Assembly: GCA_002839855.1 (NCBI GenBank)
Contig: PGYV01000005.1
Coordinates: 19,824-83,823 of the forward strand
Reading direction: 5' to 3'
Origin: Candidatus Goldiibacteriota bacterium HGW-Goldbacteria-1
GTDB taxonomy: Bacteria > Oederibacteriota > PGYV01
Length of the DNA stretch: 64,000 bases
In this document: one piece after another, positions 1 through 5,571 of the stretch
Position numbering within the stretch: position 1 is the first letter of the stretch
Layout of the letters: every line of letters begins with the position of its first letter
The notes under the pieces: model-generated
The model's database searches: none
Told to the model about the DNA's origin: nothing
Seen by the model: the letters and a program-made list of their open reading frames with translations, nothing else
Program-made: the position numbers and the translations under genes

Positions 1-1084
1 CGTAATAATTCAACTCCGGCGTCCAGCTTACCCCGCCGTCATAGTTGTATACTTCGCCTGTCTTCCAGTCGTACTGGTTTCCGTAGTCGCCGCCGGGTAT
101 CCTTAAAAAAGACACACCAAGCTTTTTAATTTTTGCGACCGTGACATTGTCCCTGTACGCGCCTACCGGATGCCATGCAGCCAGGTTGTTGCCGTACATT
201 TTGTGTTTGTCAATAGGAAGCTTTCTTATTGATTTGGAAGCGTCTATTGTAACAGCTGATGCTTTTGTCTTTGGAGCGGCGTCCGGTATTAATTCTATCG
301 CGCCAAGATTGTTATCTTTTCCCGCTGCCACAACCGCGGATGAAACTGTCTTATCTTTATATCCGTCCCTTACAACCACAACCTTATAGTCATCGGCCGG
401 AATTGTGGCGGAAAAATTTCCCGATCCGTCTGTCTTTAAAAGCTGATCGCCTATTACTACAAGCGCCTTTTCAAGGCCTTTTCCTGAAGTCTTATCTTTA
501 ACAGTTCCCTTTACCTGCGCTGATTCACCTAAAAGTTTGCCCCTTATTGAATCCACATATATAGGGCCCGACCACGCTTCTGTGCTGTTTACAACAATAT
601 ATACTTTCCAGACTTCGCCTTTTACTTTGGTATTGTCTATCGGAAAAACCACTTCGTTCATTCCCGGCTTTATCTGTTTCTTTAACTGATACCATGCATT
701 TGCCTTACCTGAAATTACAAAGTACATTTCCTGGTACGTCATTCCTTTTACGGACGCTTCCGGTACGTATACATCCATTGTAAGTTCTTTTAACTTGTGA
801 AAATCTGCCGAAAACGGCCCTTCGAATAATGCAATATCCTGGTTCCAGCCTTTAACGCCTTTAAGGTCTATCTTTAAAGCTGATGTCCCTCCGGTTACAA
901 ATTCCGCGCCTTTTGCCACAGAGCATGCCGCCGCATTCTTGTTTACACCGTGCCAGCCTTCTGTAGTACCCGAGTCAAAACCCCATAAAGGTTTCTGACC
1001 GGAGGTACCCTCGGCAAAAACTGATGCCGAGAAAAGAAGAAAAAGCGCCGTTACTGCCAAAATCACTGCATTTTTCGTCCTCAT
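1..1084 (-). CDS. Secreted modular glycoside hydrolase-like protein, N-terminal part only
   Basis: Reads unbroken for 361 codons from an ATG at 1084 (GGAGGAGG ribosome site 7 bases upstream) and runs off the left edge. Residues 1-24 form a signal peptide ending SVFA. Residues about 25-185 look like a carbohydrate-binding-type beta-sandwich (begins LWGFDSGTTEGWHG, ends in GPIYVDSIRGKLL). Residues about 187-263 resemble a carboxypeptidase regulatory-like beta domain (VKGTVKDKTSGKGLEKA). From about 280 a TIM-barrel-like start appears, with RIPGGDYGNQYDW at 328-340, reminiscent of GH39/GH44/GH51-type enzymes. The exact family and substrate cannot be fixed because the catalytic part lies outside. 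It is third after a sigma factor and a membrane protein with a similar sugar-binding-type domain, suggesting it is a target of that regulator. Confidence 0.75.
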   Translation of the reverse strand, partial: MRTKNAVILAVTALFLLFSASVFAEGTSGQKPLWGFDSGTTEGWHGVNKNAAACSVAKGAEFVTGGTSALKIDLKGVKGWNQDIALFEGPFSADFHKLKELTMDVYVPEASVKGMTYQEMYFVISGKANAWYQLKKQIKPGMNEVVFPIDNTKVKGEVWKVYIVVNSTEAWSGPIYVDSIRGKLLGESAQVKGTVKDKTSGKGLEKALVVIGDQLLKTDGSGNFSATIPADDYKVVVVRDGYKDKTVSSAVVAAGKDNNLGAIELIPDAAPKTKASAVTIDASKSIRKLPIDKHKMYGNNLAAWHPVGAYRDNVTVAKIKKLGVSFLRIPGGDYGNQYDWKTGEVYNYDGGVSWTPELNYY

Positions 1085-1145
1085 TTTAATTCCTCCTCCA
1101 TTTTTTACTGCATATATTTGACTCATTTTTTATAATATTGTTTAC

Positions 1146-1982
1146 CTAAAAAAGCACCACATCATCTATCCATATTTCAATTGCCGCGCCGTTTCCGTTT
1201 TTGTGCTGCCACTTAAAAAGGTGTACATTTTTAAGCACGGCCTCAATATCAGCGCCATATTTACGCCCCGCCCATTCCGGCTGCTTAAGGTCATCCCTGA
1301 AAACTATATTAACTTCGTTCCAGTCATCACCTATAAATGACGTAATGTCTTTCTGGTAATCTGCGTAATTAGTAAGGGATTCGCAGGTCATTCTTTCTTT
1401 TATACAGTTATTGGATTCATGCGGAAGAATAAAATAAACACTGCCTCCCGCTGTATTACCTTTTATCTTAAACCTTATGCCGTTATATTTTGATATATCA
1501 GACCCCTGGCACTGCGGGCACTGTGATTTATTGTCAAACCTGACTACAACACCTATATAATTATAATTGTAGCCCAAATTATTACCTGTAGTTCCTGTTA
1601 TACGCACAGCCCATCCGGTATTTCCATATCCGGGCCTGCTCATTATAAATCCTTCTCCGGGTGTGTTAAATTCAGGCGGCCAGACGTAAGAATTTCCGCC
1701 CTGATGAATATCGCTGTAAGTTGACCAGACTCCCCCGCTTTTATTAAATTTATCGCCGTCATCCATGTTATCCACAACAAATATTGTAACAGCTGTAAAG
1801 GCAAAAACAGCGGCAATTGATAAAGCCGCGGCATAGCGGTGTATAAAATCAGGTTTTTTAACGCTATTTTTGGAAACCGCGCAATTTATAAGGGCATTTT
1901 TCAGGTAATATTTACCTGTTTCATTATTAATCTCTGATAATCTGGCTTTGTTAAGCTTTTCTATCAGGTCTTTTTCTTCCAT
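1146..1982 (-). CDS. Putative anti-sigma factor with extracytoplasmic carbohydrate-binding-like domain
   Basis: A 278-residue protein with a cytoplasmic segment of about 49 residues, one membrane segment at about 50-70, and an outer domain at about 83-278. The outer domain has the pattern of CBM11/CIA30 galactose-binding-like folds: GGVWSTYSD followed by GGNSYVWP, then GWAVRITGT, YNGIRFKIKG, and a final IEIWIDDVVLF. It carries two cysteine pairs (CPQC; CIKERMTC). The start is the ATG at 1982, 9 bases after AAGGAG; the ATG at 1991 abuts that site. The gene follows the sigma factor by about 60 bases, which is the basis for the anti-sigma call. No zinc anti-sigma HxxxCxxC motif is seen, so that role is inferred. 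The design recalls clostridial RsgI proteins. Confidence 0.6.
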   Translation of the reverse strand: MEEKDLIEKLNKARLSEINNETGKYYLKNALINCAVSKNSVKKPDFIHRYAAALSIAAVFAFTAVTIFVVDNMDDGDKFNKSGGVWSTYSDIHQGGNSYVWPPEFNTPGEGFIMSRPGYGNTGWAVRITGTTGNNLGYNYNYIGVVVRFDNKSQCPQCQGSDISKYNGIRFKIKGNTAGGSVYFILPHESNNCIKERMTCESLTNYADYQKDITSFIGDDWNEVNIVFRDDLKQPEWAGRKYGADIEAVLKNVHLFKWQHKNGNGAAIEIWIDDVVLF

Positions 1983-2044
1983 TTTTATCATCTCCTTACT
2001 TATTCTTACACTCTTATAATGCAGGCCGGTTCAAAGCGTTGCGT

Positions 2045-2626
2045 TTATTTTTCACTTTTTTCAAGTTTTTTTCTTAACATCATAAGCCCTCTTGAAAGCA
2101 GGGATTTAACAGTCCCCCCGTTCTTGCCCAGCGCTTCGGCTATCTGCGGCACTGTCATTTCCTGAAAAAATCTTAATACAATTACATCCTGATATTTGGA
2201 ATCCATTGCATAGAGGGCTGTCTTTATATCCTGATAATCTTTATTTTTGTCAATTTCTTCCTGCGCCTTAGTAAGTTCATGGTCAATTGCCTCTGCTGAT
2301 TCTTTATCCAATACCCCTTCTTCACCTATTGCGTCGTCATATAAAACAGGATCATATTTTCTTTTTCTGAAAAACATATTTACTTCATTACCTGCTATAC
2401 GGTACAGCCACGCGGAAAAAGGAACGCCTGTAAACCTGTATGTGTGTAATTTATTAAGGGCTTTGAAGAAAGTTTCCGATGTGATATCAGCCGCAGTTTC
2501 CGCGCTGCCGGTTTTATGAAGCACGTATCTAAGGATAGGTTTGTAGTATTTTTCAAACAATTCCCCAAAAGCTGCCGGATTTGTTTTTGCCCTCTCTATT
2601 ATTTCCTGTTCATTAAACTCAGGCAT
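2045..2626 (-). CDS. ECF-type RNA polymerase sigma factor
   Basis: A 193-residue sigma-70 family protein of ECF size. Region 2 is visible (FGELFEKYYKPILRYVLHKT, ADITSETFFKAL, PFSAWLYRIAGNEV), then an acidic linker of about 45 residues, then region 4 with a helix-turn-helix (VPQIAEALGKNGGTVKSLLS). An in-frame TTG at 2668 would add 14 residues, but the ATG at 2626 gives the usual ECF start (MPEFNEQEII) and family length. It is the first gene of the sigma, membrane protein, hydrolase run. It starts 83 bases after the end of a GGDEF gene. By family it binds core RNA polymerase and is held by a membrane anti-sigma; the next gene is the obvious candidate. Its regulon cannot be read here. Confidence 0.88.
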   Translation of the reverse strand: MPEFNEQEIIERAKTNPAAFGELFEKYYKPILRYVLHKTGSAETAADITSETFFKALNKLHTYRFTGVPFSAWLYRIAGNEVNMFFRKRKYDPVLYDDAIGEEGVLDKESAEAIDHELTKAQEEIDKNKDYQDIKTALYAMDSKYQDVIVLRFFQEMTVPQIAEALGKNGGTVKSLLSRGLMMLRKKLEKSEK

Positions 2627-2708: not shown

Positions 2709-4103
2709 CTACGCTTTGGTAACTCTGTTTCTTCCGTTATGTTTTGAAGTGTAAAGCGCCTTATCGGCGCGTTCTATTAAGCCTCTTCTTGAAATCGCGT
2801 CACCCGGATATGTTGCAACACCCATGCTTAAAGTAACGCCGATTACAGTACCATTAAAGTTAAGTTTTGTTTTCTCTATCTCTTTTCTTATTTTAACCGC
2901 CTTGATATGCGCCGCTTCTTTATCTGTATCCGGCATTATAATTACAAATTCCTCACCGCCATACCTTGCAACTGTCTCCGCAGGGCTTGTGCTGTTTTTT
3001 AAAATTACCGCGATATTCTTCAGTATAAAATCCCCTGCAAGATGCCCGTATGTGTCATTAACTTTCTTGAAGAAATCTATATCACACATCACAAGGGAAA
3101 GCTGGTTATCATACCTTCCCGCCCTTTTAACTTCATCTTCCAGTTTTTCCTGAAAATACCTGTGGACATAAAGCCCGGTTAAACTGTCAGTTACGGATAT
3201 CTGCTGTATTTCCTCGTACAGATTTACCTTTTCAAGCGAAATAGCTATCTGGTTGGCAAGTATTTTCATGCTTTCCACCTGTTTGTCATTGAAAAGATTT
3301 TCCGCGGAACCCGATATTATCATCAGGCCAAGCAGCTTTTTTTCAACCACAAAAGGCACTTTTAAAACACTTTTATGAAAATGCACATCATCAAGTCCGG
3401 ACGCGGCATAGGATATTTCAAGCCCGGTCTTCTCATTGATAACAGATTTAATAATCTGCTTCTCTTTTTCCTTTATATATTCTTCATCATAACCCATTGA
3501 AGAAGCAATATAAAAAGAATCCGCCTTTTTAAACACAAGAAGCACGTTTACCTTCTCCGGCTCTATCTCAAAATTATATTTAAGAACTTTTTTCAGTATC
3601 TCTTTTATTATCTGTGCCATATCATCATATTTCATGGCAAAACTGAGCCCTTTGGCGGCCGTATAAAGAGATGTAATGCCTTTTATCTCCGACTCTATAT
3701 TGTTATCTTCTTTTTCGGCAAGATTCACAGATTCGCTTTTCACCAGTTCTAAATCCTGCTTCTTTTTCATTATTTCTACTTCCCTTAATTTCAGTTTAAG
3801 TTCATTACGGGCAAAAGGCACTGACAGCATATAAAGCAGAATGAACCACAGGCCGCCTAAAAGGGCTGCCGAAACAGATATGGTTTTTAACTTAAAAGAC
3901 AGAATAAATATCAGAACAACAGCAGACAGAAGAAATAAATTCATCTGTATTCCCGTGTTTTCCCTTGCCGCCAGAAGGATTATTAAACCAAGAAAGAAAA
4001 CCGCATACTGCGCTGTTGAAAGCCCAAAAAAATGACCAAGAAGGTATATTAAAGCAGCTCCCGCGATAAGCGCCGGATATAAAATAATCCATTTACTTTT
4101 CAT
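2709..4103 (-). CDS. Membrane GAF-GGDEF diguanylate cyclase without an I-site
   Basis: A 464-residue protein. Several hydrophobic helices fill residues 1-100, a short coiled segment follows, then a GAF-like domain at about 145-295, and a GGDEF domain at about 300-464. The active-site signature GGEEF is at 382-386, so synthesis of cyclic di-GMP from GTP is expected. The position of the inhibitory RxxD site is SPAE here, so product inhibition through that site is unlikely. The start overlaps the end of the next GGDEF gene by 11 bases, indicating translational coupling in the coaE-HDOD-HD-GYP-GGDEF-GGDEF run. The GAF ligand is unknown. Confidence 0.88.
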   Translation of the reverse strand: MKSKWIILYPALIAGAALIYLLGHFFGLSTAQYAVFFLGLIILLAARENTGIQMNLFLLSAVVLIFILSFKLKTISVSAALLGGLWFILLYMLSVPFARNELKLKLREVEIMKKKQDLELVKSESVNLAEKEDNNIESEIKGITSLYTAAKGLSFAMKYDDMAQIIKEILKKVLKYNFEIEPEKVNVLLVFKKADSFYIASSMGYDEEYIKEKEKQIIKSVINEKTGLEISYAASGLDDVHFHKSVLKVPFVVEKKLLGLMIISGSAENLFNDKQVESMKILANQIAISLEKVNLYEEIQQISVTDSLTGLYVHRYFQEKLEDEVKRAGRYDNQLSLVMCDIDFFKKVNDTYGHLAGDFILKNIAVILKNSTSPAETVARYGGEEFVIIMPDTDKEAAHIKAVKIRKEIEKTKLNFNGTVIGVTLSMGVATYPGDAISRRGLIERADKALYTSKHNGRNRVTKA

Positions 4104-5571
4104 CGTAAATATCCTCCCAGAACGTTATGCGGTTTCTTCCATTTTCTTTGGAATAATAAAGCGCTTTATCGGCGTTATTAACCATCTCGCCAAGTTTACA
4201 CCTGTTATTAAATTCCATTCCTCCGCCGCTTAACGTAAGCCTGGTTTTTTCTGTTTCATTTACATTAATTATAAGCTTTTCAAAATTTCCGCGGATCCTT
4301 TCAGCCACAAACCTTGCCCCGTTAAGGTTTGTGTTTGGAAGTACTATGGCAAATTCCTCGCCGCCGTAACGCCCTATTATATCCACATCCCTTAAATTTT
4401 CCTTTAAGAACTCTCCAAGCAGCCTTAACACTTTATCCCCAAATGTATGCCCGTGAGTGTCATTGCACTCTTTAAAATGATCTATATCTATCATAAGATA
4501 AGAGAATGTTTCATTAAGTTCTTTTGCCCTTTTAAATTCTTCATCCAGTTTTTCCATAAAATGGCGCCTGATAAACAGCCCTGTAAGGCCGTCCTTAGTG
4601 GCAAGTTCGCGTGTTTTTGTATAAAGCATCGCGTTCTGAACGGCGTTAGTACACAAATCTCCAAGGTAGTTTAAAAGTCTGGCGTCTTCAGCGTCAAACA
4701 TTTTTGGAACATTGGAATAAAATTTAAGCAGCCCTATTATCTTTGTATTTACAATCAGCGGGATGGCTATCATGGACTTAAATTTAATCCAGTCCCTTCT
4801 TACAAGCTTAAATCTGAAATCTTCATCAATATTTTTTATTATTAAAGTATATTTGTTTTTTATGACCCAGTCGTCAAACGGGTCTTTTCTGTATACCTTT
4901 ATAGTGCCTCGGATAAAGGTTTCTTTCTCATGATTTTCCAAAGCCGGATAAAAAATGTCATTATCCTCATCACGGATAAGCAGCATAAATTCCGCCTGTT
5001 TATCCCCAAGAATACTGTTCATGCCGTCATTAATTATTTTAACTATCACTTTTCTGTCAAGCGCGGATGTCAGTTTCTGCGCTATTTCATTAAGTTTTAA
5101 GTAATTTCTTATTCTGCCTTTATTGGCTTCAATAACACCGTGAATTTTATTAATTTTTTCAGTGAATTCAATGTGTTCTTTTTCTATTTCACCTTCCCAT
5201 AGTTCGTACTGCCCTTCTTTCATCTCTATATCTTCTATCCATTTTAATAACACAAAAGAAAAAATTATGGACAGCAGAACAAATGCGGCGTATGGGACCG
5301 GAGATTCCCCCTGCATCGTCCTTAAAAAAAATATAAGGTTTACAAAAATATACAGAAGCCCATAGATAAGCCCCGCGCTCTTTCCCATTGAGAAAAACGA
5401 GTAAATCATGGCAAATAATCCCAGCGACATAATTATGGGATTGTCAAAAACCAGGGAAAAAACTATTATCGCAATGCTGATAAGCGCCAGCACAGCTGAA
5501 TTTACAGCAACAAAAGCGATGTTCTTGTTATTGCGGAAATAAAACCTGTTTAAGACTGCCAGCCTATCCAT
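4093..5571 (-). CDS. Membrane GAF-GGDEF diguanylate cyclase with an I-site
   Basis: A 492-residue protein with hydrophobic helices at about 15-110, a charged helical stretch, a GAF domain at about 165-320 and a GGDEF domain at about 325-480. GGEEF is at 403-407 and is preceded by RDVD at 394-397, the canonical RxxD inhibitory site that its downstream neighbour lacks. Expected role is membrane-associated cyclic di-GMP synthesis with product feedback. It overlaps both neighbours by a few bases (5564-5571 upstream, 4093-4103 downstream), so it is part of a tightly packed operon. The two cyclases share architecture and are probably tandem-duplication paralogues that diverged in regulation. Confidence 0.88.
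   Translation of the reverse strand: MDRLAVLNRFYFRNNKNIAFVAVNSAVLALISIAIIVFSLVFDNPIIMSLGLFAMIYSFFSMGKSAGLIYGLLYIFVNLIFFLRTMQGESPVPYAAFVLLSIIFSFVLLKWIEDIEMKEGQYELWEGEIEKEHIEFTEKINKIHGVIEANKGRIRNYLKLNEIAQKLTSALDRKVIVKIINDGMNSILGDKQAEFMLLIRDEDNDIFYPALENHEKETFIRGTIKVYRKDPFDDWVIKNKYTLIIKNIDEDFRFKLVRRDWIKFKSMIAIPLIVNTKIIGLLKFYSNVPKMFDAEDARLLNYLGDLCTNAVQNAMLYTKTRELATKDGLTGLFIRRHFMEKLDEEFKRAKELNETFSYLMIDIDHFKECNDTHGHTFGDKVLRLLGEFLKENLRDVDIIGRYGGEEFAIVLPNTNLNGARFVAERIRGNFEKLIINVNETEKTRLTLSGGGMEFNNRCKLGEMVNNADKALYYSKENGRNRITFWEDIYDEK

Follow-up and report, generated by a model that had tools for sequence, protein, structure and literature searches.

The stretch of DNA analysed here, referred to as the window, comprises 64,000 nucleotides (G000:C5:19824-83823) of a Candidatus Goldiibacteriota genome (Goldbacteria/FCPU426) of 2.86 Mb in 18 contigs. 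On its minus strand, a gene for an extracytoplasmic function (ECF) sigma factor is followed by one for a one-pass membrane protein and one for a secreted protein resembling a glycoside hydrolase (GH). These three consecutive genes had been proposed in an earlier note made from the letters of the DNA and their open reading frames (ORFs), hereafter the sequence-only reading, and inspection of the ORFs revealed all three to be present. Their coordinates, together with those of the protein segments and of a promoter-like element, are shown in Table 1. For the membrane protein, the ATG at 1982, which is preceded by AAGGAG, was preferred over the ORF start at 1991; for the GH-like gene, whose ORF begins at 1126, the preferred start is at 1084, preceded by GGAGGAGG. 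Past the edge of the window, the GH-like gene is interrupted by a run of Ns in the assembly (L003 9796-10000) and picks up again behind it. Altogether it is broken by N runs at L003 8979-9040 and 9796-10000 and, because the reading frames differ on the two sides, these runs appear to be scaffold gaps with an estimated length.

Table 1. Positions in the window of the cassette A genes, protein segments and promoter-like element.
Feature	Position	Strand	Basis and remarks
ECF sigma factor, cassette A, 193 aa	2045..2626	-	ATG at 2626, stop at 2045; Pfam matches to Sigma70_r2 and r4; orthologues in 10 genomes
Promoter-like element GCAACGCTTTGAACCGGCCTGCATTATA (-35 GCAAC, 16-nt gap, -10 CATTATA)	2015..2042	-	Kept in 19 cassettes; genome, phylum and window scans
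Membrane anti-sigma candidate, whole ORF from first ATG	1146..1991	-	19 orthologues/paralogues, each behind an ECF gene
Cytoplasmic N-terminal segment, residues 4-52, putative anti-sigma domain	1836..1982	-	Alignment of 19 sequences; fused sigma-anti-sigma model
Single transmembrane helix, residues 53-75	1767..1835	-	Sequence, alignment, helix in fused model
Outer CBM11-like domain, residues 76-281, putative sensor	1149..1766	-	AlphaFold2, Foldseek, PDB profile search
Secreted GH44-like glycoside hydrolase, 5' part, same operon	1..1084	-	Signal peptide, CBM4_9/17_28-like sandwich, CarboxypepD_reg, start of barrel

A survey of 45 genomes of the phylum revealed this arrangement, termed cassette A, in ten genomes, nine of which also carry a paralogous cassette B (split over two contigs in one genome); all of them belong to one order. 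In the genome of the window, cassette B lies on contig C16, and its sigma factor and membrane protein are 48% and 40% identical, respectively, to those of cassette A. An ECF gene was found directly upstream of the membrane protein gene in 19 out of 19 cases, with a short gap or an overlap between the two. Orthologous membrane proteins occurring away from any sigma gene, which the sequence-only reading had named as evidence against its own proposal, were thus not encountered. With its recurrence in ten genomes and a paralogous cassette in nine, the three-gene arrangement is far from chance. In the tree of the membrane proteins, types A and B are split at 100% support; the sigma factor tree is compatible with this split but shows long branches, low support and no clean sister groups. 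The cassettes differ in their third gene, which in cassette A encodes the GH-like enzyme and in cassette B (L024:8912-9652, G000:C16; orthologues L049-L056) a secreted protein consisting only of a domain of the same type as the outer domain of the membrane protein, in the following called the sensor-type domain.

Analysis of the first gene product with Pfam gave matches over cut-off to Sigma70_r2 (4e-14) and Sigma70_r4_2 (5e-11) and no further domain, confirming the earlier assignment as an ECF sigma factor, in which only sigma2 and sigma4 are present. The nearest NCBIfam model was TIGR02952 of the BldN family (119 bits versus a cut-off of 206), and the nearest PDB sequence was that of BldN in the BldN-RsbN complex (6dxo). 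Judged by these scores, the sigma factor is related to the BldN family without being a member of it.

The membrane protein begins with a K/R-rich cytoplasmic N-terminus of approximately 50 residues, followed by one transmembrane helix. None of the 19 aligned sequences has the zinc motif Hx3Cx2C in its cytoplasmic segment, as the sequence-only reading had observed for the window; about half of the known class I anti-sigma domains also do without it (PMC7406223). Searches of Pfam, NCBIfam and PDB sequences with the N-terminal segment yielded no family above threshold. In the 19-sequence alignment, the segment is conserved across orthologues and paralogues.

For modelling of the complex between the sigma factor and the N-terminus, which had been put forward as a check, locus L034 was used, where both genes share a reading frame, and the stop codons and the bases between the genes were read through as a linker. 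The fused model had a mean predicted local distance difference test value (pLDDT) of 77 and a predicted template-modelling score (pTM) of 0.71. The cytoplasmic segment was modelled as two helices with a pLDDT of ~76-85, versus 41-47 for the linker, the two-helix prediction drawing on a shallow alignment. The sigma part of the model was nearest to SigW bound by RsiW, with a template-modelling score (TM) of 0.74, and to CnrH bound by CnrY (TM 0.67), and was distant from RNA-polymerase-bound sigma factors (TM 0.33-0.40). This suggests that the sigma factor is modelled in an anti-sigma-bound arrangement of the SigW/RsiW or CnrH/CnrY kind. With two helices and a bound-like sigma factor in a model that carries no interface score, the result is compatible with the proposed complex and provides moderate evidence for it. 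Taking a short two-helix domain that wraps sigma4 and sigma2 (CnrY-like) as class II and a three-helix domain (RsbN-like) as class III, the modelled segment may belong with the short class II anti-sigmas, and the model lends no support to the separate anti-sigma class suggested earlier.

The membrane protein might also be regarded as a cell-anchored carbohydrate-binding module (CBM) protein without any anti-sigma role, placed next to the ECF gene as a matter of operon convenience, and the lack of a match to any anti-sigma model of Pfam or NCBIfam is in line with this. We consider it very improbable, given that the adjacency to the ECF gene, with its short gap or overlap, was kept in 19 out of 19 cases through the A/B duplication, that the cytoplasmic segment is conserved, and that the model gives this segment helices of clearly higher pLDDT than the linker and a sigma factor nearest to the RsiW- and CnrY-bound forms. 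The transmembrane helix runs straight into strand 1 of the CBM-like domain, leaving no room for a periplasmic autocleavage (SEAL) domain; the RsgI model did not match the membrane protein in Pfam or NCBIfam searches.

For the outer domain, no family was found above threshold in searches of Pfam, NCBIfam and PDB sequences. The Pfam CBM_11 match was sub-threshold (15.3 bits versus a cut-off of 27), and CtCBM11 of Clostridium thermocellum was the sole PDB sequence recovered by a profile search, at a non-significant E of 0.03. The AlphaFold2 model, calculated with 38 homologous domains, reached a pLDDT of 92.4 and a pTM of 0.91. Its comparison with the PDB using Foldseek revealed three CtCBM11 entries as the top matches (6r3m, 1v0a and 6r31; E 2-3e-7, TM 0.52-0.65), followed by the complex-I assembly factor NDUFAF1/CIA30 and then by CBM30. 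As modelled, the outer domain has the CBM11 fold, which agrees with the CBM11/CIA30/CBM30 type assigned to it before. Residues C158, C161 and C203 were invariant in 19 out of 19 orthologues, with C195 being present only in type A; the two cysteine pairs described for the window therefore hold for type A and not across the orthologues. Large secreted proteins of these genomes also contain the sensor-type domain, in some cases together with GH9, GH44 or GH16 modules and with CIA30 matches.

CtCBM11 is a type B module for single chains of beta-glucan and soluble mixed-linkage gluco-oligosaccharides, with Glc-b1,4-Glc-b1,4-Glc-b1,3-Glc as the minimum ligand (PMC8612152). The genome of the window encodes Omp85 homologues, from which it follows that the cell is probably diderm and that the outer domain would face the periplasm. 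Of the earlier proposal that an extracellular glycan is sensed, the glycan is compatible with the CBM11 fold, while "extracellular" should probably read periplasmic. In that location, soluble oligosaccharides would be a likelier ligand than cellulose fibres, and the domain may bind beta-1,4 or mixed-linkage glucan. There are, however, reasons to think of a real switch whose outer domain senses something other than glucan, namely a protein partner (e.g., the free sensor of cassette B), the envelope state or another sugar: CIA30/NDUFAF1, a protein-protein module, is an equally close fold family, the CBM11 sequence match is weak, and the conserved CPxC and a further conserved Cys may point to redox- or metal-related features that CBM11 lacks. 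Since the domain type is common to secreted cellulases of the same genomes, the top structural matches are CBM11 and CBM30, and the apparent regulon described below is glucan-degrading, this alternative is judged unlikely.

Between the sigma and anti-sigma genes, the element GCAAC-N16-CRTTATA was found in the same place in 19 out of 19 cassettes, a few -10 boxes differing by one or two bases. It contains the AAC triad and T-rich stretch that are a feature of ECF -35 regions (PMC6056542). The element overlaps the last sigma codons in some genomes and is intergenic in others; because its position relative to the end of the sigma gene varies, it is the DNA and not a peptide that is conserved. A peptide motif "TQP..G..VI" at the C-terminus of the sigma factor of some genomes was considered and rejected, since the same DNA falls outside the sigma gene in other genomes; what looks like a motif is the in-frame translation of the promoter element.

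The copy in the window is the only exact one in 64 kb. Scanning of the ten cassette genomes yielded 47 element matches versus 2 for a reversed-pattern control, and that of the 35 genomes without a cassette 8 matches versus 12-13 for the control. This corresponds to 1.80 versus 0.085 hits per Mb in cassette and non-cassette genomes, an approximately 21-fold difference (Fisher p ~1e-6). Spacers of 15 and 17 nt were near the control level, except for copies before some cassette-B sigma genes, and a one-mismatch scan of the genome of the window gave background only (13 matches versus 9 for the control). Type-B sigma genes have the element upstream, with a gap of 15 or 17 nt in some genomes; none of the type-A sigma genes showed a convincing copy in front of it.

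Several ECFs are encoded per genome and the link between sigma factor and promoter is based on co-occurrence, and so the element promoters could belong to another ECF sigma factor or regulator, for which the cassette would be merely one target. This is improbable, as the element was enriched only in cassette genomes, with at most one match in each of four genomes of the same order that lack the cassette but have other ECFs (three of the four at E<=1e-10). Moreover, no cassette lacks the element, and cassette B has a further copy upstream of the sigma gene, with the gap of this copy being one base off in some genomes.

The 47 exact matches were located at 14 cassette genes, 22 genes for predicted secreted proteins or lipoproteins, 1 probable enzyme remnant, 2 LacI genes and 8 sites elsewhere, secretion being judged by eye from the N-termini. 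Among the secreted proteins are GH9 enzymes with CelD_N as well as GH44, GH5-type and CBM4_9/CIA30 enzymes. In the genome of the window, element sites lie before the anti-sigma gene of the window, sigma B, anti-sigma B (near-exact) and the genes of two large secreted proteins of 1268 and 1374 aa, both with the sensor-type domain; two further exact or near-exact matches (C1:116630 and C11:31564) are intragenic and were discarded as promoters, being taken as chance. The regions upstream of the two large secreted enzymes had element scores of 23-26, those of other enzymes scores of <=6, which is background. A sharing of the element by other cellulases of this genome was therefore rejected for those examined, which implies that the regulon is small there and that other regulators must act. 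That the element lies upstream of the anti-sigma/GH operon as well as of other cellulase genes supports the earlier claim that the sigma factor switches on enzymes such as the adjacent one.

That adjacent enzyme is 765-795 aa long in its full-length relatives, and wherever a type-A locus was examined with long flanks, the third gene encoded a secreted GH of this length. Its layout is a signal peptide, a CBM4_9/17_28-like N-terminal sandwich, a CarboxypepD_reg domain and a GH44-like barrel. The secretion and the hydrolase barrel expected for this gene were thereby confirmed; the sandwich did not prove to be sensor-like, and a sensor-type domain is accordingly no longer assigned to this gene. 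No GH family of Pfam, including Glyco_hydro_44, was matched. In a profile search with the third gene, the C-terminal half of the barrel matched (E 1e-9) the solved cellulase 3fw6/3ii1, which we take to be a GH44 enzyme. The putative catalytic glutamates in GNE(P/x)D and TEWN are kept in eight out of eight aligned relatives; in the genome of the window, the first of them (GNExD) falls in the assembly gap. The enzyme (window 1-1126; relative L062:10870-13221) may belong to a hitherto undescribed GH family or to a remote subfamily of GH44.

We propose, at a probability of about 0.72, that the cassette constitutes a transmembrane ECF sigma/anti-sigma switch for the degradation of cellulose (beta-glucan), with the CBM11-like outer domain as the sensor of glucan oligosaccharides. 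Through its short cytoplasmic segment, the membrane protein would keep the ECF sigma factor inactive until the periplasmic CBM11-like domain binds glucan oligosaccharides, and binding would loosen the hold of the anti-sigma, most likely via proteolysis with the site-2 protease RseP acting last. The genome of the window encodes an RseP-type homologue, which makes a release by regulated proteolysis plausible. The freed sigma factor would guide RNA polymerase to the GCAAC-N16-CRTTATA promoters, which would drive the operon of anti-sigma and GH44-like enzyme, thus combining negative feedback and output, as well as other secreted glucan-degrading enzymes and, in cassette B, the sigma gene itself.

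Several points weigh against this proposal, the support for which is computational throughout. The similarity of the outer domain to CBM11 is below the Pfam threshold, its fold is also that of the non-sugar-binding CIA30, and the binding-site residues of CtCBM11 are not clearly retained, as far as a weak alignment shows. The docking model contains a read-through intergenic linker, comes with no interface error estimate and reaches a pTM of only 0.71. Neither a periplasmic autocleavage domain nor a site-1 protease was identified. Most of the examined enzyme genes of the window's genome are without the element, and the cassette and the motif density, both limited to one order, are not phylogenetically independent.

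In C. thermocellum, SigI/RsgI pairs likewise combine a membrane anti-sigma with an outer carbohydrate-binding module, an adjacent sigma gene and target promoters before polysaccharide-degrading enzymes (PMC6056542, PMC3990059). The partner here is, by contrast, a true ECF (sigma2 plus sigma4), and there is neither an RsgI_N domain nor a counterpart of the RsgI autocleavage domain (PMC12203970); the modules listed there for RsgI are CBM3, PA14 and others, not CBM11. The sequence-only reading had supposed an ECF partner, instead of SigI, in an analogous design. That the neighbouring sigma factor is an ECF was confirmed; the novelty of the design was not, as sigma24C-Rsi24C of C. thermocellum already pairs a sigma24/ECF-type sigma factor with a membrane anti-sigma bearing an outer cellulose-binding module, which is a catalytically dead GH5 that binds cellulose (PMC3990059, PMC3526467). 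The present system differs from it in having a predicted CBM11-like sandwich in place of the GH5 barrel, in the enzyme gene being in the same operon, in the promoter between sigma and anti-sigma and in belonging to another phylum.

For ECF52 (SCO4117, Streptomyces), gating of ECF activity by an outer carbohydrate-binding domain has also been proposed (PMC5826349); there, however, sigma factor, zinc finger, membrane helix and CBM form one polypeptide, whereas here two proteins are involved and the zinc motif is missing. Short zinc-free anti-sigma segments are shared with BldN-RsbN and CnrH-CnrY, the outer sensors of which are unrelated; the segment here has two predicted helices, RsbN three (PMC7406223). 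In the literature searched, no report of a CBM11-like anti-sigma sensor and no account of a cellulase regulon or its regulation in Goldbacteria was found. Binding and degradation of cellulose have been demonstrated for Goldbacteria, an uncultured phylum. They were enriched on cellulose and possess active GH9 cellulases, and among the CBMs of the characterised genome CBM11 is present in the highest number (PMC7031533). The proposed switch would extend CBM-gated anti-sigma control to ECF sigma factors with a CBM11-like sensor outside the clostridia, in a trans-membrane layout that differs from RsgI. It names a sensor and a sigma factor, gives the promoter sequence and predicts a set of targets, all of which can be tested in a heterologous host.

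The distribution of the element over the two cassettes allows for a more tentative idea. Because a convincing copy of the element is missing before the type-A sigma gene, anti-sigma and GH enzyme would be induced without the sigma factor in type A, a layout of negative feedback, while the element upstream of the type-B sigma gene is as expected for autoregulation. The free sensor-domain copy of cassette B could buffer or present ligand. Possibly, though with less than even odds, the two cassettes form a two-tier circuit, in which the internal promoter of A places sigma-driven negative feedback on the sensor, B is fully autoregulated, and the free sensor of B presents or buffers the same ligand. 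If this were true, it would imply a family of glycan-sensing anti-sigmas that trap the sigma factor with a minimal pair of helices and do without an autocleavage domain, and an order-wide control of cellulose degradation.

Directly upstream of the type-A sigma gene lie two GGDEF/GAF-like genes (window 2709-5571), as in nearly all relatives with enough flanking sequence, which suggests a possible link to cyclic-di-GMP. Most type-A loci with long flanks have these two GGDEF genes upstream and polyamine genes downstream. LacI-family regulators were found beside cellulase clusters without the element (L027 1846-2841, L032 7954-8916, L151 and L154), and two genomes have the element in front of a LacI gene; these regulators might form a second layer of control. 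At L130 (G034:C70), the element is followed by an apparently broken secreted gene with remains of the sensor-type domain. Secreted enzymes at L025, L027, L032, L085 and L087 share a FlgD/CHU_C-like C-terminal domain and end in ...K(L/I)IILK or similar; this shared end resembles a type IX secretion sorting domain.

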